A stretch of DNA of 64,000 nt from Flavobacterium piscinae (GTDB taxonomy: Bacteria; Bacteroidota; Bacteroidia; Flavobacteriales; Flavobacteriaceae). Where the stretch lies: assembly GCF_004122145.1 (NCBI RefSeq), contig NZ_SBKQ01000002.1:124001-188000 (forward strand), written 5' to 3'. Within the stretch, counting starts at the first letter, position 1. The number at the start of each line of letters is the position of its first letter. Position numbers and translations under genes: made by a program. The notes below the pieces were generated by a model that was not told where the DNA came from, ran no database searches, and saw nothing but the letters and a program-made list of their open reading frames with translations. Of the stretch, positions 33,721 to 62,744 are shown piece after piece.

Positions 33721-34052
33721 AATAAAAATTTTTTTACAAAAAAAGAAAAATAAATACTATTAACAAAATAATTCTTCACAATTTAATTATTTTTCAAGCC
33801 AATATATTCTAAAATTATTAAAGTTCATTAAAAATTAAAATCGAACTTTTCTATTTTGTATTCACTTTTAAATCTGTTGTTTATCATATTTAATAACAAC
33901 TAATTATCCTGATTTTTTTGATGAATAAAATTTAATTTAATATTCATTAAACTTGAGTTTTAGCACTTCCCCGCGTTAAGGATTGCAGTGGAAAGCCCAC
34001 AGAGAGGAGGAACGACGAACGAGGACTTGTAACGGAAAGCCTGACCCGTAGC
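33721..34052. other. Intergenic region without genes (33721-34139): AT-rich part
   Basis: The first 235 bases are extremely AT rich and hold no gene, RNA or clear promoter. From 33961 a GC-rich repeat begins (separate entry), and the GbsR promoter and operator fill the rest to 34139. Confidence 0.5.
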
Positions 34053-43244: not shown

Positions 43245-43342
43245 AAATTATGAGTAGTATAATTTTTAATCGGTAAATCGATATAATTCATAATAATCAC
43301 CATAAGAATAGTTTTATTTGACCCATTTACGTTTATTATTGA

Positions 43343-43350
43343 TAATTTCG
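43343..43350 (+). promoter_or_regulatory. -7 element of the FabH-like gene
   Basis: TAATTTCG, 21 nt before the ATG at 43372, which supports the shorter start. Confidence 0.45.
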
Positions 43351-43371
43351 CTTACTATACCACAATTTAAT

Positions 43372-44430
43372 ATGAATATCAAAATAACCGGATCGGGGAG
43401 TTATATTCCAACACAAACAATAACTAATTTAGATTTTGCACAGCACCACTTTCTCAATAGCGATGGTTCAACATTTGCTCAATCAAATGAAGTGGTTGCC
43501 GAAAAATTTCTTGAAATTACCGGAATTCGGGAACGAAAATACGTTTCTGACGATCTAACCACTTCTGACATTGCCTTTATTGCCGCTCAAAAAGCGATTG
43601 AAGAGGCCAAGATTGATGCGGAAACACTGGACTACATTATCCTAGCCCACAACTTTGGCGATGTAAAAAAAGGAGCCATACAATCGGATATTTTGCCAAG
43701 CTTGGCTTCACGTGTCAAACACAGTTTAAAAATAAAAAACCCCAAATGCGTGGCTTATGATGTGCTTTTTGGCTGCCCTGGCTGGATCGAAGGAATCATT
43801 CAAGCACAAGCATTCATCAAAGCAGGAATGGCCAAAAAATGCCTTGTGATTGGTGCCGAAACACTTTCCCGTGTGGTTGACAGACACGATCGCGACAGTA
43901 TGATTTACTCCGATGGTGCCGGTGCAACTGTGGTTGAAGCTACTGATGAAGAAGGTGGAATTTTGGCACATGCCACTGCTACATTCACTTATGATGAAGC
44001 CTACTACCTCTTTTTTGGTGATTCATTCAACAAAACACATGACCCAAACGTTCGATACATCAAAATGCATGGTCGAAAAATATATGAGTTTGCCTTAAGT
44101 CAAGTCCCCAAAGCTATGAAAGAATGCCTTGATGAAAGTGGCGTTTCGATTCAAGACGTAAAAAAAATTCTTATTCATCAAGCCAACGAAAAAATGGATG
44201 AGGCCATTATCGATCGTTTTTATAAACTTTATCAATTGCCAACTCCTGAAAACATTATGCCAATGAGCATACATTATTTAGGCAATTCCAGTGTGGCCAC
44301 TATTCCAACCTTATACGATCTCATCCTTAAAAATCAAATAGAAAACCAAAAACTGAACAAAGGCGACATAGTCATTTTTGCCTCGGTGGGTTCCGGGATG
44401 AACATTAATGCAATTGTATATAAAATGTAA
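43372..44430 (+). CDS. 3-oxoacyl-ACP synthase III-family protein (FabH-like)
   Basis: 352 residues, start at 43372 rather than the ORF start 43318. The KAS III triad is present: Cys135 in LFGCPGW, His269 in LIHQAN, Asn305 in LGNSS. Other typical motifs are ITGIRERKY and YSDGAGA. The normal FabH role is to condense acetyl-CoA with malonyl-ACP; as a paralogue it could serve a special lipid or secondary product. It is followed immediately by a 141-bp repeat and then by a methyltransferase and a glycosyltransferase gene. Confidence 0.9.
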   Translation: MNIKITGSGSYIPTQTITNLDFAQHHFLNSDGSTFAQSNEVVAEKFLEITGIRERKYVSDDLTTSDIAFIAAQKAIEEAKIDAETLDYIILAHNFGDVKKGAIQSDILPSLASRVKHSLKIKNPKCVAYDVLFGCPGWIEGIIQAQAFIKAGMAKKCLVIGAETLSRVVDRHDRDSMIYSDGAGATVVEATDEEGGILAHATATFTYDEAYYLFFGDSFNKTHDPNVRYIKMHGRKIYEFALSQVPKAMKECLDESGVSIQDVKKILIHQANEKMDEAIIDRFYKLYQLPTPENIMPMSIHYLGNSSVATIPTLYDLILKNQIENQKLNKGDIVIFASVGSGMNINAIVYKM

Positions 44431-44439
44431 TTTTTAAGT

Positions 44440-44580
44440 AGCTGATCCTGCTTTCCGTTACAAGCTTGTTGGCAAAAACTGTTTTTTCTAAGCAGCTTCA
44501 AGAGCTTCTGCAAGTCGCTTTGCTTCTGCAAGAAAAAATCAGTTTTTGCTGTACAAGGCTTTCCACTTCAATCAGGGCTA
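44440..44580 (+). repeat. 141-bp structured intergenic element, copy 1
   Basis: It starts 9 nt after the FabH-like stop. Ends: AGCTGATCCTGCTTTCCG and CCACTTCAATCAGGGCTA. Paired arms 44472-44488 (GCAAAAACTGTTTTTTC) and 44532-44549 (GAAAAAATCAGTTTTTGC) form a stem with one bulge. The loop holds AGCTTCTGCAAGTCGCTTTG. Copy 2 (61755-61895) has the same length, ends and core loop but other arm sequences. It is not a CRISPR or a gene. Confidence 0.85.
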
Positions 44581-44606
44581 TAACGTGCCAACATCAAATA
44601 ATTTAG

Positions 44607-44632: not shown

Positions 44633-45154
44633 ATGTACGAAAAAACATTTCCTAATAAACGATTCAAAATCACACTTGAATTTTTAGAAAAACACCTTTC
44701 TAAATCGGAAACCATTTTAGATTTAGGGGTAGAAAATCCGTTTTCAAAAATCATGATTGAAAAGGGTTTTTCAGTTAAAAACACGAAAGGTGAAGATTTA
44801 GACATCGATCAATCAACCTTACAAAACGAAAGTTATTCTGTAGTTACTGCTTTTGAAATTTTCGAACATTTGCTCAATCCGTTTACAGTTTTACAAAGTG
44901 TAAAATCGGATAAAATTTTTATTTCTATTCCGTTACGCCTGTGGTTTTCTTCAGCTTACAGAAGTAAAACCGATATGTGGGACCGCCATTACCATGAATT
45001 TGAAGATTGGCAATTGGATTGGCTGTTAGAAAAAAACGGTTTTACTATTGTAGATTTTGTAAAGTTTACACATCCAACAAAAAAATTAGGTTTTAGACCA
45101 TTGTTACGGTATTTTACCAATCGGTATTATTTGGTTTATGCGGTGAGAAAGTGA
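44633..45154 (+). CDS. Class I SAM-dependent methyltransferase-like protein
   Basis: 173 residues from the ATG at 44633, which follows a -7 element; the ORF start at 44546 lies inside the repeat. The fold resembles class I methyltransferases: motif I ETILDLGVENPFSKIM (a degenerate glycine loop), FEIFEHLLNP (motif with acidic residues) and IFISIPLRLWF. The substrate is unknown. Its stop lies in a tandem repeat (GTGATTAGTGAATAGT, AATTAGTGAATAGT). A GT2 gene follows 30 nt later. Confidence 0.85.
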   Translation: MYEKTFPNKRFKITLEFLEKHLSKSETILDLGVENPFSKIMIEKGFSVKNTKGEDLDIDQSTLQNESYSVVTAFEIFEHLLNPFTVLQSVKSDKIFISIPLRLWFSSAYRSKTDMWDRHYHEFEDWQLDWLLEKNGFTIVDFVKFTHPTKKLGFRPLLRYFTNRYYLVYAVRK

Positions 45155-60658: not shown

Positions 60659-61354
60659 ATGCAACCAACAGATAGTTTAGCAACAGCACAAAATGCTTTA
60701 TTAGAGGATCAACCCATCGAAAAAACACTATCCATTTGGGATTTAATCACCAGTGGTGGAATTGGAGGGCAACTCATCATGATTACATTGGGTTTGTTGC
60801 TTTTTTTCGCTTTGTATCTTTATTTTGAAAGATTAATGGCCATTAATGCCGCTTCTAAAATTGATGTGAATTTTATGAATAACATCAAAATGAATATCCT
60901 CAACGGAAAATTAGATGCCGCCAAAATGCTATGTGCTCAAACCAATTCGCCGGTTGCTCGTTTGACAGAAAAAGGAATTTCTCGGATCGGAAAACCATTA
61001 GAAGATATCAATACAGCCATAGAAAATGCCGGTAAACTGGAAATTTATAAACTAGAGAAAAACGTGAGTATGCTCGCCACCATCTCCGGTGCTGGCCCAA
61101 TGATTGGTTTCTTAGGAACCGTAATTGGTATGATTCTTGCCTTCCATAAAATGGCTAGCGGTGGTGGACAAATTGAAGTAGGTGCTTTGGCAGAAGGAAT
61201 TTACACTGCCATGACAACTACAGTTGCCGGATTAATAGTTGGAATTGTCGCTTTCATGGGCTACAACCATTTAGTGGTTAAAACCGACAAAGTAGTGCAC
61301 CAAATGGAAGCCAATGCAACTGATTTCCTTGACCTTTTAAACGAACCTTCTTAA
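60659..61354 (+). CDS. exbB: ExbB/TolQ-family proton channel protein
   Basis: 231 residues with a soluble N-terminus of about 30 residues and three helices. The MotA/TolQ/ExbB domain shows GPMIGFLGTVIGMILAF and AMTTTVAGLIVGIVAF, the channel helices. With ExbD and TonB it uses proton flow to energise outer-membrane receptors. exbD begins 1 nt after its stop. Confidence 0.93.
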   Translation: MQPTDSLATAQNALLEDQPIEKTLSIWDLITSGGIGGQLIMITLGLLLFFALYLYFERLMAINAASKIDVNFMNNIKMNILNGKLDAAKMLCAQTNSPVARLTEKGISRIGKPLEDINTAIENAGKLEIYKLEKNVSMLATISGAGPMIGFLGTVIGMILAFHKMASGGGQIEVGALAEGIYTAMTTTVAGLIVGIVAFMGYNHLVVKTDKVVHQMEANATDFLDLLNEPS

Positions 61355-61355
61355 T

Positions 61356-61748
61356 ATGAATATCAGAGGTAGAAATAAAGTATCACCGGAATTCAACATG
61401 TCGTCTATGACAGACATAGTGTTTTTGTTGCTGATTTTTTTTATGTTAACTTCCACTATGGTCACCACCAATGCATTGGATCTAGTGTTACCAAAAGCAA
61501 AAGGTAAAACAGACAGCAATAAAAATATTTCGGTCAGTATCAATAAAGATTTAGAGTTTTTTATTGACAAAGACAAAGTGCAAGAAGCCGATTTGGAAGC
61601 TCGATTATTAGCTCTGTTTTCCAACCAAGAAGATAAAGCATTAATTCTTAGAGCCGAAGAAGGTGTGCCAATTGAAAAAGCAGTCAATGTGTTAGACATC
61701 GCCAACCGCAACCAAATAAAAGTAGTATTGGCCGTTCGACCAAAATAA
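61356..61748 (+). CDS. exbD: ExbD/TolR-family protein
   Basis: 130 residues: a single N-terminal helix with the essential aspartate in SSMTDIVFLLLIFF, and a periplasmic domain. Directly coupled to exbB (TAATATG). A 141-bp structured repeat begins 6 nt after its stop. Confidence 0.93.
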   Translation: MNIRGRNKVSPEFNMSSMTDIVFLLLIFFMLTSTMVTTNALDLVLPKAKGKTDSNKNISVSINKDLEFFIDKDKVQEADLEARLLALFSNQEDKALILRAEEGVPIEKAVNVLDIANRNQIKVVLAVRPK

Positions 61749-61754
61749 TTAGAA

Positions 61755-61895
61755 GCTAATCCTGCTGTCCGTTCTTAGTTTTTTTGAATAAACCCTTTTT
61801 TTGTAAGCCGTTTCAATAGCTTCTAAAGTCGCTTTGAAACAGCAACAAAAAATAGTGTTTCTTTCAAAAAAAGCTATCCACTACCATCAGGGCTA
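61755..61895 (+). repeat. 141-bp structured intergenic element, copy 2
   Basis: Same length and ends as copy 1 (AGCTAATCCTGCTGTCCG ... CCACTACCATCAGGGCTA). Arms 61780-61803 and 61846-61872 pair but differ in sequence from copy 1. Loop core AAAGTCGCTTTG is shared with copy 1 (AAGTCGCTTTG). It lies in the exbD-tonB spacer, 6 nt after exbD and 12 nt before tonB. Confidence 0.85.
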
Positions 61896-61907
61896 AAAAG
61901 AGAGACC

Positions 61908-62744
61908 ATGAAATATTTAGAAACCGAACACGAAAAAAAATCATTTGCCATTACTACAGCAATTATGGCAGTGTTGCTTTTATTATGCATTTTTCTAGGG
62001 TTAACATACATGGATCCACCACCGGAAAACGGAATCGCTATTAACTTTGGAAACACTGACGCGGGTTCTGGAAACACCAACACCACAGAACCTGTAAAAT
62101 CAGAACCAAGAGAGGTTAATGAACAACCGGTTGAAGAATCCACATCAGAACCGACTACACCAAGTAAAGCCTCAGAAAATGTCATAACTGCGGATAACGA
62201 AGCGGCCATTGCTTTAAAAAAACAAAAAGAAATAGCCGATGCAAAAGCGAAAGCAGAAGCCATAGCAAAAGCAGCCGAAGAGAAAAAAAAGAAAGAAGAA
62301 GCCGATAAAAAAGCAAAATTAGATGCTTTAATTGGTGGTGTTAAAAAATCAGAAGGAAAAACCACAGGAGGAGATGGAACATCCACCACACCGGGTAATC
62401 AAGGAAAAATTGACGGCAGCATCTATTCCAACAGCTATTATGGCAGTGGAAAAGGTGTTGGCACCGGAAATGGATCTTGGGGATTAAACGGAAGACGGCT
62501 TTCCAGCCCGGGAGCGGTTAAAGCGGACTGTAATGATGAAGGAACAATTGTAGTAGAAGTAAAAGTAAACAAAAACGGAGGGGTAACCAACGCAAAATAC
62601 AGTCCGAGTGGCTCAAATACTACGAGTACTTGCCTTAAAGAAGCTGCCATTAAATCAGCCTACAAATACAAATGGAATAACGATGAAAATGCTCCGGATA
62701 CTCAAATTGGATTTATCGTTTTTAATTTTAGTAATGGAGAGTAA
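61908..62744 (+). CDS. tonB: Energy transducer TonB-like protein
   Basis: 278 residues. One N-terminal helix (AVLLLLCIFLGLTYM), a Pro/Ser/Glu-rich then Ala/Lys-rich coiled-coil-like spacer, a Gly/Ser-rich segment, and a C-terminal TonB_C-type domain with EVKVNKNGGVTNAKY and two cysteines. It joins ExbB and ExbD to receptors such as SusC and FecA. The N-terminal helix lacks a clear SxxxH motif as far as I can see. A terminator follows. Confidence 0.85.
   Translation: MKYLETEHEKKSFAITTAIMAVLLLLCIFLGLTYMDPPPENGIAINFGNTDAGSGNTNTTEPVKSEPREVNEQPVEESTSEPTTPSKASENVITADNEAAIALKKQKEIADAKAKAEAIAKAAEEKKKKEEADKKAKLDALIGGVKKSEGKTTGGDGTSTTPGNQGKIDGSIYSNSYYGSGKGVGTGNGSWGLNGRRLSSPGAVKADCNDEGTIVVEVKVNKNGGVTNAKYSPSGSNTTSTCLKEAAIKSAYKYKWNNDENAPDTQIGFIVFNFSNGE

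Follow-up and report, generated by a model that had tools for sequence, protein, structure and literature searches.

The window analysed here, a stretch of 64,000 nucleotides from one contig of Flavobacterium piscinae, carries two copies of a structured element, each lying between genes. A preliminary description, made from the letters alone, took the element for an RNA or a mobile, REP-like sequence under structural constraint. The question this locus raises is which of these it is, and what keeps it where it is.

The two copies and their family

The covariance model of RF01705 (Flavo-1, Rfam), whose gathering score is 42, matched both copies on the minus strand and over the full model, positions 1 to 76. 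Copy 1 scored 54.5 bits (match 44440-44583, E 4.6e-9 over the whole window) and copy 2 scored 59.2 bits (match 61754-61898, E 2.4e-10 over the whole window); with these E-values, the pair is beyond chance. The scores above the gathering value, a consensus structure supported by related copies and a distribution in Bacteroidetes place the element in RF01705. The mention of similar text of no known function elsewhere in flavobacteria fits: the element is Flavo-1. Since the match is on the minus strand, the strand that fits the model runs antisense to the genes around each copy. The features are these:

33958..34050, plus strand: divergent third relative, subtype GCGTTAAGGAT..CCTGACCC (RF01705 35 bits, E 6e-4, below the cut-off; locus L021)
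43318..44430, plus strand: gene before copy 1, ketoacyl-ACP synthase III-like (PF08545, PF08541; start codon uncertain)
44440..44580, minus strand: copy 1, long-form Flavo-1 (54.5 bits; 141 bp; 16 other measured copies at the orthologous site)
44503..44520, minus strand: apical core hairpin of copy 1 (GCGAC..GAAGCT on the minus strand), columns invariant or nearly so in 28 long-form sequences
44633..45154, plus strand: gene after copy 1, methyltransferase-like (PF13489, 26.1 bits, slightly below the cut-off of 27)
60659..61354: MotA/ExbB-like gene preceding the ExbD/TolR gene (PF01618)
61356..61748, plus strand: gene before copy 2, ExbD/TolR (PF02472)
61754..61895, minus strand: copy 2, long-form Flavo-1 (59.2 bits; 142 bp; site empty or differently filled in relatives)
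61818..61834, minus strand: apical core hairpin of copy 2, columns invariant or nearly so in 28 long-form sequences
61908..62744, plus strand: ORF after copy 2, 278 aa, without a Pfam match, TonB/TolA-like by position only

The preliminary description gave the copies exactly equal lengths of 141 bp. Both copies exist, but copy 1 measures 141 bp and copy 2 142 bp; the start of copy 2 had been placed at 61755 by dropping its first A, and the same end words give 61754. The copies are identical in 105 of 143 aligned columns and share, as had been noticed, their end words and a loop core, AGTCGCTTTG, which starts at 44513 and 61827. Ends and apical core are kept while the stems vary, again as described. 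The TAA of a plus-strand gene precedes both copies, by 9 nt (copy 1) and 5 nt (copy 2) rather than by 6 to 9 nt, and a further ORF on that strand follows each. What the early account missed, with copies, ends and core all real, is that the minus strand is the conserved, structured one.

Flavo-1 was named in 2010; the table row seen from that paper reads y, n, n, Bacteroidetes, RF01705, as values without column heads (Weinberg et al. 2010, PMC2864571). The portion available of a 2022 review counts it among the most abundant sRNA families and gives no function there (PMC9029176). Its Rfam type is "Gene; sRNA". A search of one paper collection for Flavo-1 and RF01705 found no functional account.

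Copies with the same ends had been expected in related genomes, and they are there. Flavo-1 was found in 26 of 40 relatives, including 23 of 25 genomes of the same genus (own genome included), and the copies counted per same-genus genome ranged from 0 to at least 88; G002, G018, G020 and G024 are at the low end, each with a count of 0-4. The own genome holds at least 29 further RF01705 matches (E up to 1e-3), at least 17 of them over the cut-off; 29 is a lower bound, because 150 of 1017 candidates were scored and the two window copies were outside that list. In a sample across the phylum, 44 of 296 genomes had a match, and matches thinned out with distance; all 18 same-genus genomes among the rows listed, from which 232 matchless rows were left out, had one. 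None of 14 control genomes carried Flavo-1, and phage and plasmid collections gave no match to one short-form query. A pattern scan for the long-form core in genomes of named species returned at least 114 stretches, and 73 of the 80 listed were labelled Flavobacterium, from F. psychrophilum to F. frigoris. Two long-form copies lie in metagenome-assembled contigs labelled Lentimicrobium and Saprospiraceae (L313 and L316). A flank of L313 matches F. soyangense (L336), so mis-binning may account for at least this contig.

A second repeat, close to GAAGCGAATGGCTCGGGC, borders short copies of the own genome beyond a CTGAAAA-like word. It occupies the left flank in L001, L002, L005, L008, L018 and L020 and the right flank in L004 and L006.

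Flavo-1 sequence is constrained to a hairpin fold

Copies of Flavo-1 come in two lengths. Measured from arm to arm in 96 copies, 58 fall at 66-75 nt and 33 at 130-136 nt, so that two classes cover 91 of the 96, with 5 elsewhere (54, 56, 58, 82 and 89 nt). These copies come from 1.26 Mb of fetched sequence that is a biased sample, mostly chosen for Flavo-1 content or for orthology to such places. Both window copies are long. The Rfam consensus, at 76 positions, is the short form, and the alignment of copy 1 to it sets 83 bases against 15 model positions. The long form carries a conserved apical hairpin of its own, in which GCGAC and GAAGCT (Flavo-1 strand) vary little or not at all, and falls outside what the RF01705 model describes. 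No gene or other cargo lay between the arms anywhere in the same biased 1.26 Mb.

The structural constraint that had been suspected is borne out in three sets of copies. In 63 short copies, whose two arms were aligned separately with no structure supplied, ranking all 1260 left-right column pairs by corrected mutual information put nested base pairs of the predicted hairpin in the first 8 places. The long set comprised 28 copies (copy 2, 10 others of the own genome, and 17 from the copy-1 site with copy 1 included); for it RNAalifold gave 35 pairs, 25 of them with double changes, and none of 500 shuffles reached as high. Paired cells made up 95.4% of the total, against a mean of 78.0% in the 500 shuffles and 34.7-55.8% when slid. 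The 13 orthologs of the copy-1 site alone gave 47 pairs, of which 21 show double changes; pairing held in 93.0% of cells, against 83.9% shuffled and 39.9-52.9% slid. The structures tested come from the same alignments, which favours them; the shuffles and slides serve as controls. The covariation in the stem is thus above background in short copies, long copies and copy-1 orthologs, and the sequence of the element is constrained to the hairpin fold.

At the base of the helix lie two stacked 3x3 internal loops with GNA on all four strands (GNA/GNA), parted by two covarying base pairs, mainly G-C and then T-A, with A-T, C-G and T-G as variants. Loops of the GNA/GNA kind are expected to form sheared G-A pairs. 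Wobble-type pairs tell the strands apart. Among the outer-helix pairs of 176 copies, together with up to nine upper-stem pairs in 69 short ones, GT occurs 37 times and AC 10 times, although these 47 cells are not independent because the copies are related. By form, the counts are 20 against 4 in the 69 short copies and 17 against 6 in 107 long ones; wobble counts on RNAalifold structures lean the same way (GT 26, AC 13 in A2) but form no part of the argument. The excess of GT over AC supports the Flavo-1 strand, and not its complement, as the one that probably folds.

The hairpin consists of the two stacked GNA/GNA loops at its base, topped in the short form by a short variable stem and in the long form by a longer stem with the apical hairpin. 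Such a GNA/GNA platform could be the binding site of a putative, probably dimeric protein, which may act on the single-stranded or extruded Flavo-1 strand of the DNA.

The third subtype, seen in the window at 33958-34050 and also in L019, L022 and L025-L027, has ends like GCGTKARGGAT..CCYGACCC..MACGCCC and the same GNA-type halves, and stays below the Rfam cut-off.

Sites, direction and exchange of forms

Copy 1 adjoins the ketoacyl-ACP synthase III-like gene and the methyltransferase-like gene. From 249 genus genomes searched at this site, we examined 36 distinct ones, picked by best match and adjacency of the flanks and so not a random set. In 18 the site is filled, with one of the elements degenerate (L130), and in 18 it is unfilled; all filled sites share one direction. 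A tree of parts of the flanking genes contains a clade of 14 (support 100/98) with 13 filled rows and one unfilled. The fill pattern requires 5 changes on the tree, at least 4 of them by well-supported branches; the long branches of L128, L114 and L120 are probably a product of ungapped alignment. The element in the 14-row clade is best read as old and inherited.

Of the 17 unfilled copy-1 gaps folded (all 18 except L129), 9 hold an unrelated hairpin with z < -2, and the mean z is -2.8, so any hairpin may do at this site. Some gaps without Flavo-1 contain hairpins of words such as GTTTCAAGTTTAAAG (L108, L113, L116, L117, L126-L128); others contain direct repeats of TTGGAAG (L119-L121, L123, L124).

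At the copy-2 site, bounded by the ExbD gene and the ORF that follows, the picture differs. Both flanks could be read in 25 of 30 loci, of which 22 are empty, the flanks lying only 3-37 nt apart, and 3 are occupied. One holds the own long form, another (L142) a long form of a different subtype and the third (L146) a short form, with a single direction throughout; three different elements cannot be one inherited copy unless it was replaced. The two window sites may represent two states of the family, a young and variable one at copy 2 and an old, inherited one at copy 1.

We then joined the sites of 249 copies in fetched loci wherever similar proteins (at least 50% identity) lay on both sides, leaving copies of the same locus unpaired. 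Copies with orthologous neighbours in different loci pointed the same way at 36 sites and opposite ways at 1; with the window and the loci fetched by orthology removed, the figures are 34 and 0. The sole opposite case is L140/L146, in which both copies are short and have similar proteins to either side. At nine shared sites the genes, judged by eye from the starts of the proteins, look of many kinds, which argues against one regulon.

Some sites exchange one form for the other. The count gave 8 mixed sites, of which L185/L214 is a length error, leaving 7. In one example, L191 and L202 are short where L285, L298, L310 and L332 are long, and the sequence to the right agrees at about 88.7% from the point where the element ends. 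Similar proteins flank both sides in 9 of 11 long/short pairs tested, and one side is without them in L243/L326 and L324/L336. The long copies stem mostly from a scan for the long form only, so the proportions of short to long mean nothing. Since the arms also differ in subfamily letters, replacement appears to fit better than simple deletion of the top. This conservation of sites and exchange of forms goes beyond what the preliminary description foresaw, and in the literature searched we found neither the shared sites, nor the one direction per site, nor compensatory maintenance at one site, nor the exchange.

Taken as a whole, the window element, a long form of Flavo-1, may well be a DNA-borne, REP-like hairpin that was rarely inserted and then inherited and kept as an intergenic cis-element for a putative protein; we put this at close to an even chance. 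New copies would be inserted rarely. Selection would afterwards keep the hairpin in place as a boundary or a 3'-end hairpin, and its interior could be exchanged. If this is true, a large bacterial genus carries tens of putative protein-binding hairpins per genome. With a fold this clear, two length classes, shared sites and exchange in place, the question lends itself to direct tests.

Transcription, mobility and comparison with known systems

The position of Flavo-1 next to stop codons suggests another role, that of an mRNA 3'-end hairpin which would terminate or protect the message from the gene with the preceding stop codon. Genes that end at the AGCT end of the element often have their stop no more than 20 nt away (19 of 31 short copies, 42 of 81 long ones); for genes ending at the opposite end, the figures are 1 of 28 and 2 of 20 (orthologs only partly removed in all four counts). 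The unrelated hairpins that fill 9 of the 17 copy-1 gaps folded fit such a role as well. The mRNA, however, would carry the complementary strand, in which GT becomes AC and the GNA loops become TNC. In the flank profiles no T-tract follows directly after the hairpin on either strand, so this feature of intrinsic terminators is absent, and short forms are found equally often upstream of genes. We consider this mRNA 3'-end role unlikely.

A small RNA gene family or cis-acting RNA, made from the Flavo-1 strand and acting by binding to a protein or target, is what the Rfam type implies, and a fold with G-U pairs on one strand would suit it. TAnnTTTG is the flavobacterial promoter word. Across 167 copies, it occurs on the Flavo-1 strand 12 times in the 100 nt that precede the element, flat with distance, and no promoter belonging to the element was seen there. 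The word leads away from the element 46 and 34 times on its two sides. In the 3' flank of the same 167 copies, 31 such words lead into the element on the complementary strand, which may thus be transcribed. The profile of 176 copies has the AGCT end followed by N-C-W-R-AAAA and the other end preceded by YYY-T, and this A-rich 3' flank resembles TAnnTTTG, so it is perhaps the source of those 31 words.

Counted once per site, the short form is antisense to both neighbours at 21 of 83 sites, sense at 22, divergent at 20 and convergent at 14; short copies thus lie in all directions to genes. The long form, at 68 sites, is antisense to both at 29, sense at 6, divergent at 10 and convergent at 11. 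The mostly antisense position of the long form speaks against an RNA made from the Flavo-1 strand, as do the lack of promoter words upstream and the tens of copies in many genomes, and yet a direction bias is not predicted by a purely DNA role by itself. In a study of F. psychrophilum, several 5' transcribed regions coincide with Flavo-1 matches (PMC9723704). The same text states that the matches seemed indistinctly sense or antisense to transcribed regions, with many in none, and that this offered no functional clue (PMC9723704). No test run in this analysis supported the RNA half of the first interpretation. We hold the RNA explanation to be quite unlikely and the RNA label doubtful; should Flavo-1 be a hairpin maintained as DNA and not an RNA gene, its listing as an sRNA misleads.

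On a bolder reading, Flavo-1 sites would be chromosomal docking points, fixed in Flavobacterium, where a putative enzyme, reading the folded Flavo-1 strand through the double GNA/GNA platform, would swap short and long hairpin cassettes in one direction and with no cargo genes. We think this very unlikely.

Another explanation makes Flavo-1 a set of REP elements moved by a RAYT (TnpA-REP) HUH transposase. Like REP and REPIN sequences, it is a family of intergenic hairpins that recurs many times in a genome and is read on one strand, and RAYT-like genes are common in the genus. The idea of a RAYT origin came from a mention of "atypical secondary structures" beside subclass 2.6 RAYT genes (PMC6006769). 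No title on Flavo-1 turned up in the RAYT, REP and REPIN literature of the collection searched. The classical foot, GT[AG]G at the 5' base of the hairpin, is absent from the 176-copy profile, which has YYY-T before the helix and N-C after it. Among 21 same-genus genomes with at least 10 counted copies, 7 have no homolog of the own RAYT, and 4 of these have no Y1_Tnp match at all. The neighbourhoods of Y1 and RAYT genes are not enriched either, with Flavo-1 at 0 of 13, 2 of 20 and 2 of 52 loci (228 kb); the half-motif test used on the 52 loci found 2 in a 400 kb control and is strict enough to miss copies. One copy of the third subtype, L059, lies near a RAYT-like gene. Flavo-1 is also larger than REP/REPIN sequences and has the GNA/GNA loops. 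The REP/RAYT membership that the preliminary description had hinted at thus fails in its classical sense, and movement by a RAYT is highly improbable.

In three complete genomes, 78 of 150 listed copies (of 226) follow a replichore rule (26/51, 24/43 and 28/56), so no replication-strand bias was seen; the terminus was taken half-way from dnaA, as GC skew was too weak to confirm it. A strand bias had appeared in the first 11 listed copies of one genome (G010), at 10 of 11, and was dropped after the 78/150 result. In G060, 40 of 56 listed copies are on the assembly's plus strand whichever replichore they lie in, possibly by chance.

Two other kinds of mobile DNA invite comparison. The hairpin ends of IS200/IS605 and other substrates of single-strand DNA transposition are, like Flavo-1, imperfect hairpins read on one strand, but Flavo-1 showed no linked enzyme, no replichore bias and, in the biased 1.26 Mb, no copy with cargo. 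MITEs are small, non-coding, dispersed miniature inverted-repeat elements, present or absent per site. Flavo-1 is likewise small, non-coding, dispersed and present or absent at a given site, but its terminal helix is only 3 bp. Compared with its own Rfam family, the window copies share the arms, the structure and the Bacteroidetes distribution; they differ in being long, with the extra conserved apical hairpin, where the RF01705 consensus is short and listed as an sRNA, and their context fits a DNA element better. Because copies are retained at their sites, movement can be no more than a rare event.

The least probable explanation, that these are old copies of a non-autonomous transposon with no present function and conserved only through recency, would suit the range of 0 to at least 88 counted copies per same-genus genome and the presence/absence differences at three sites examined, and could hold for the copy-2 site; compensatory changes within the orthologs of the copy-1 site contradict it there, and 36 shared sites in one direction speak against it.

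Empty sites that could show a target-site duplication or an insertion junction were too diverged to read, and many of the pairs with an empty site among fetched loci were uninformative. At the L035 site, the relatives L165 and L176 read TTTAGCTTC where others are filled, with TAGC as a possible target duplication, but a clean insertion would not leave flanks like these. In 19 of 176 copies the terminal AGC/GCT triplet gives way to GCC/GGC, ACC/GGT, AGT/ACT or AAC/GTT, a count that is partly circular because the script required the partner triplet. Three genomes at the L035 site (L168, L173 and L179) have in common about 46 nt of extra sequence, itself hairpin-like, within the left arm. In the gap of L163-L181 at this site, a repeat, CTCGCAAAGACGCAGAGACGCAAAG, recurs with its inverted copy both beside Flavo-1 and instead of it.
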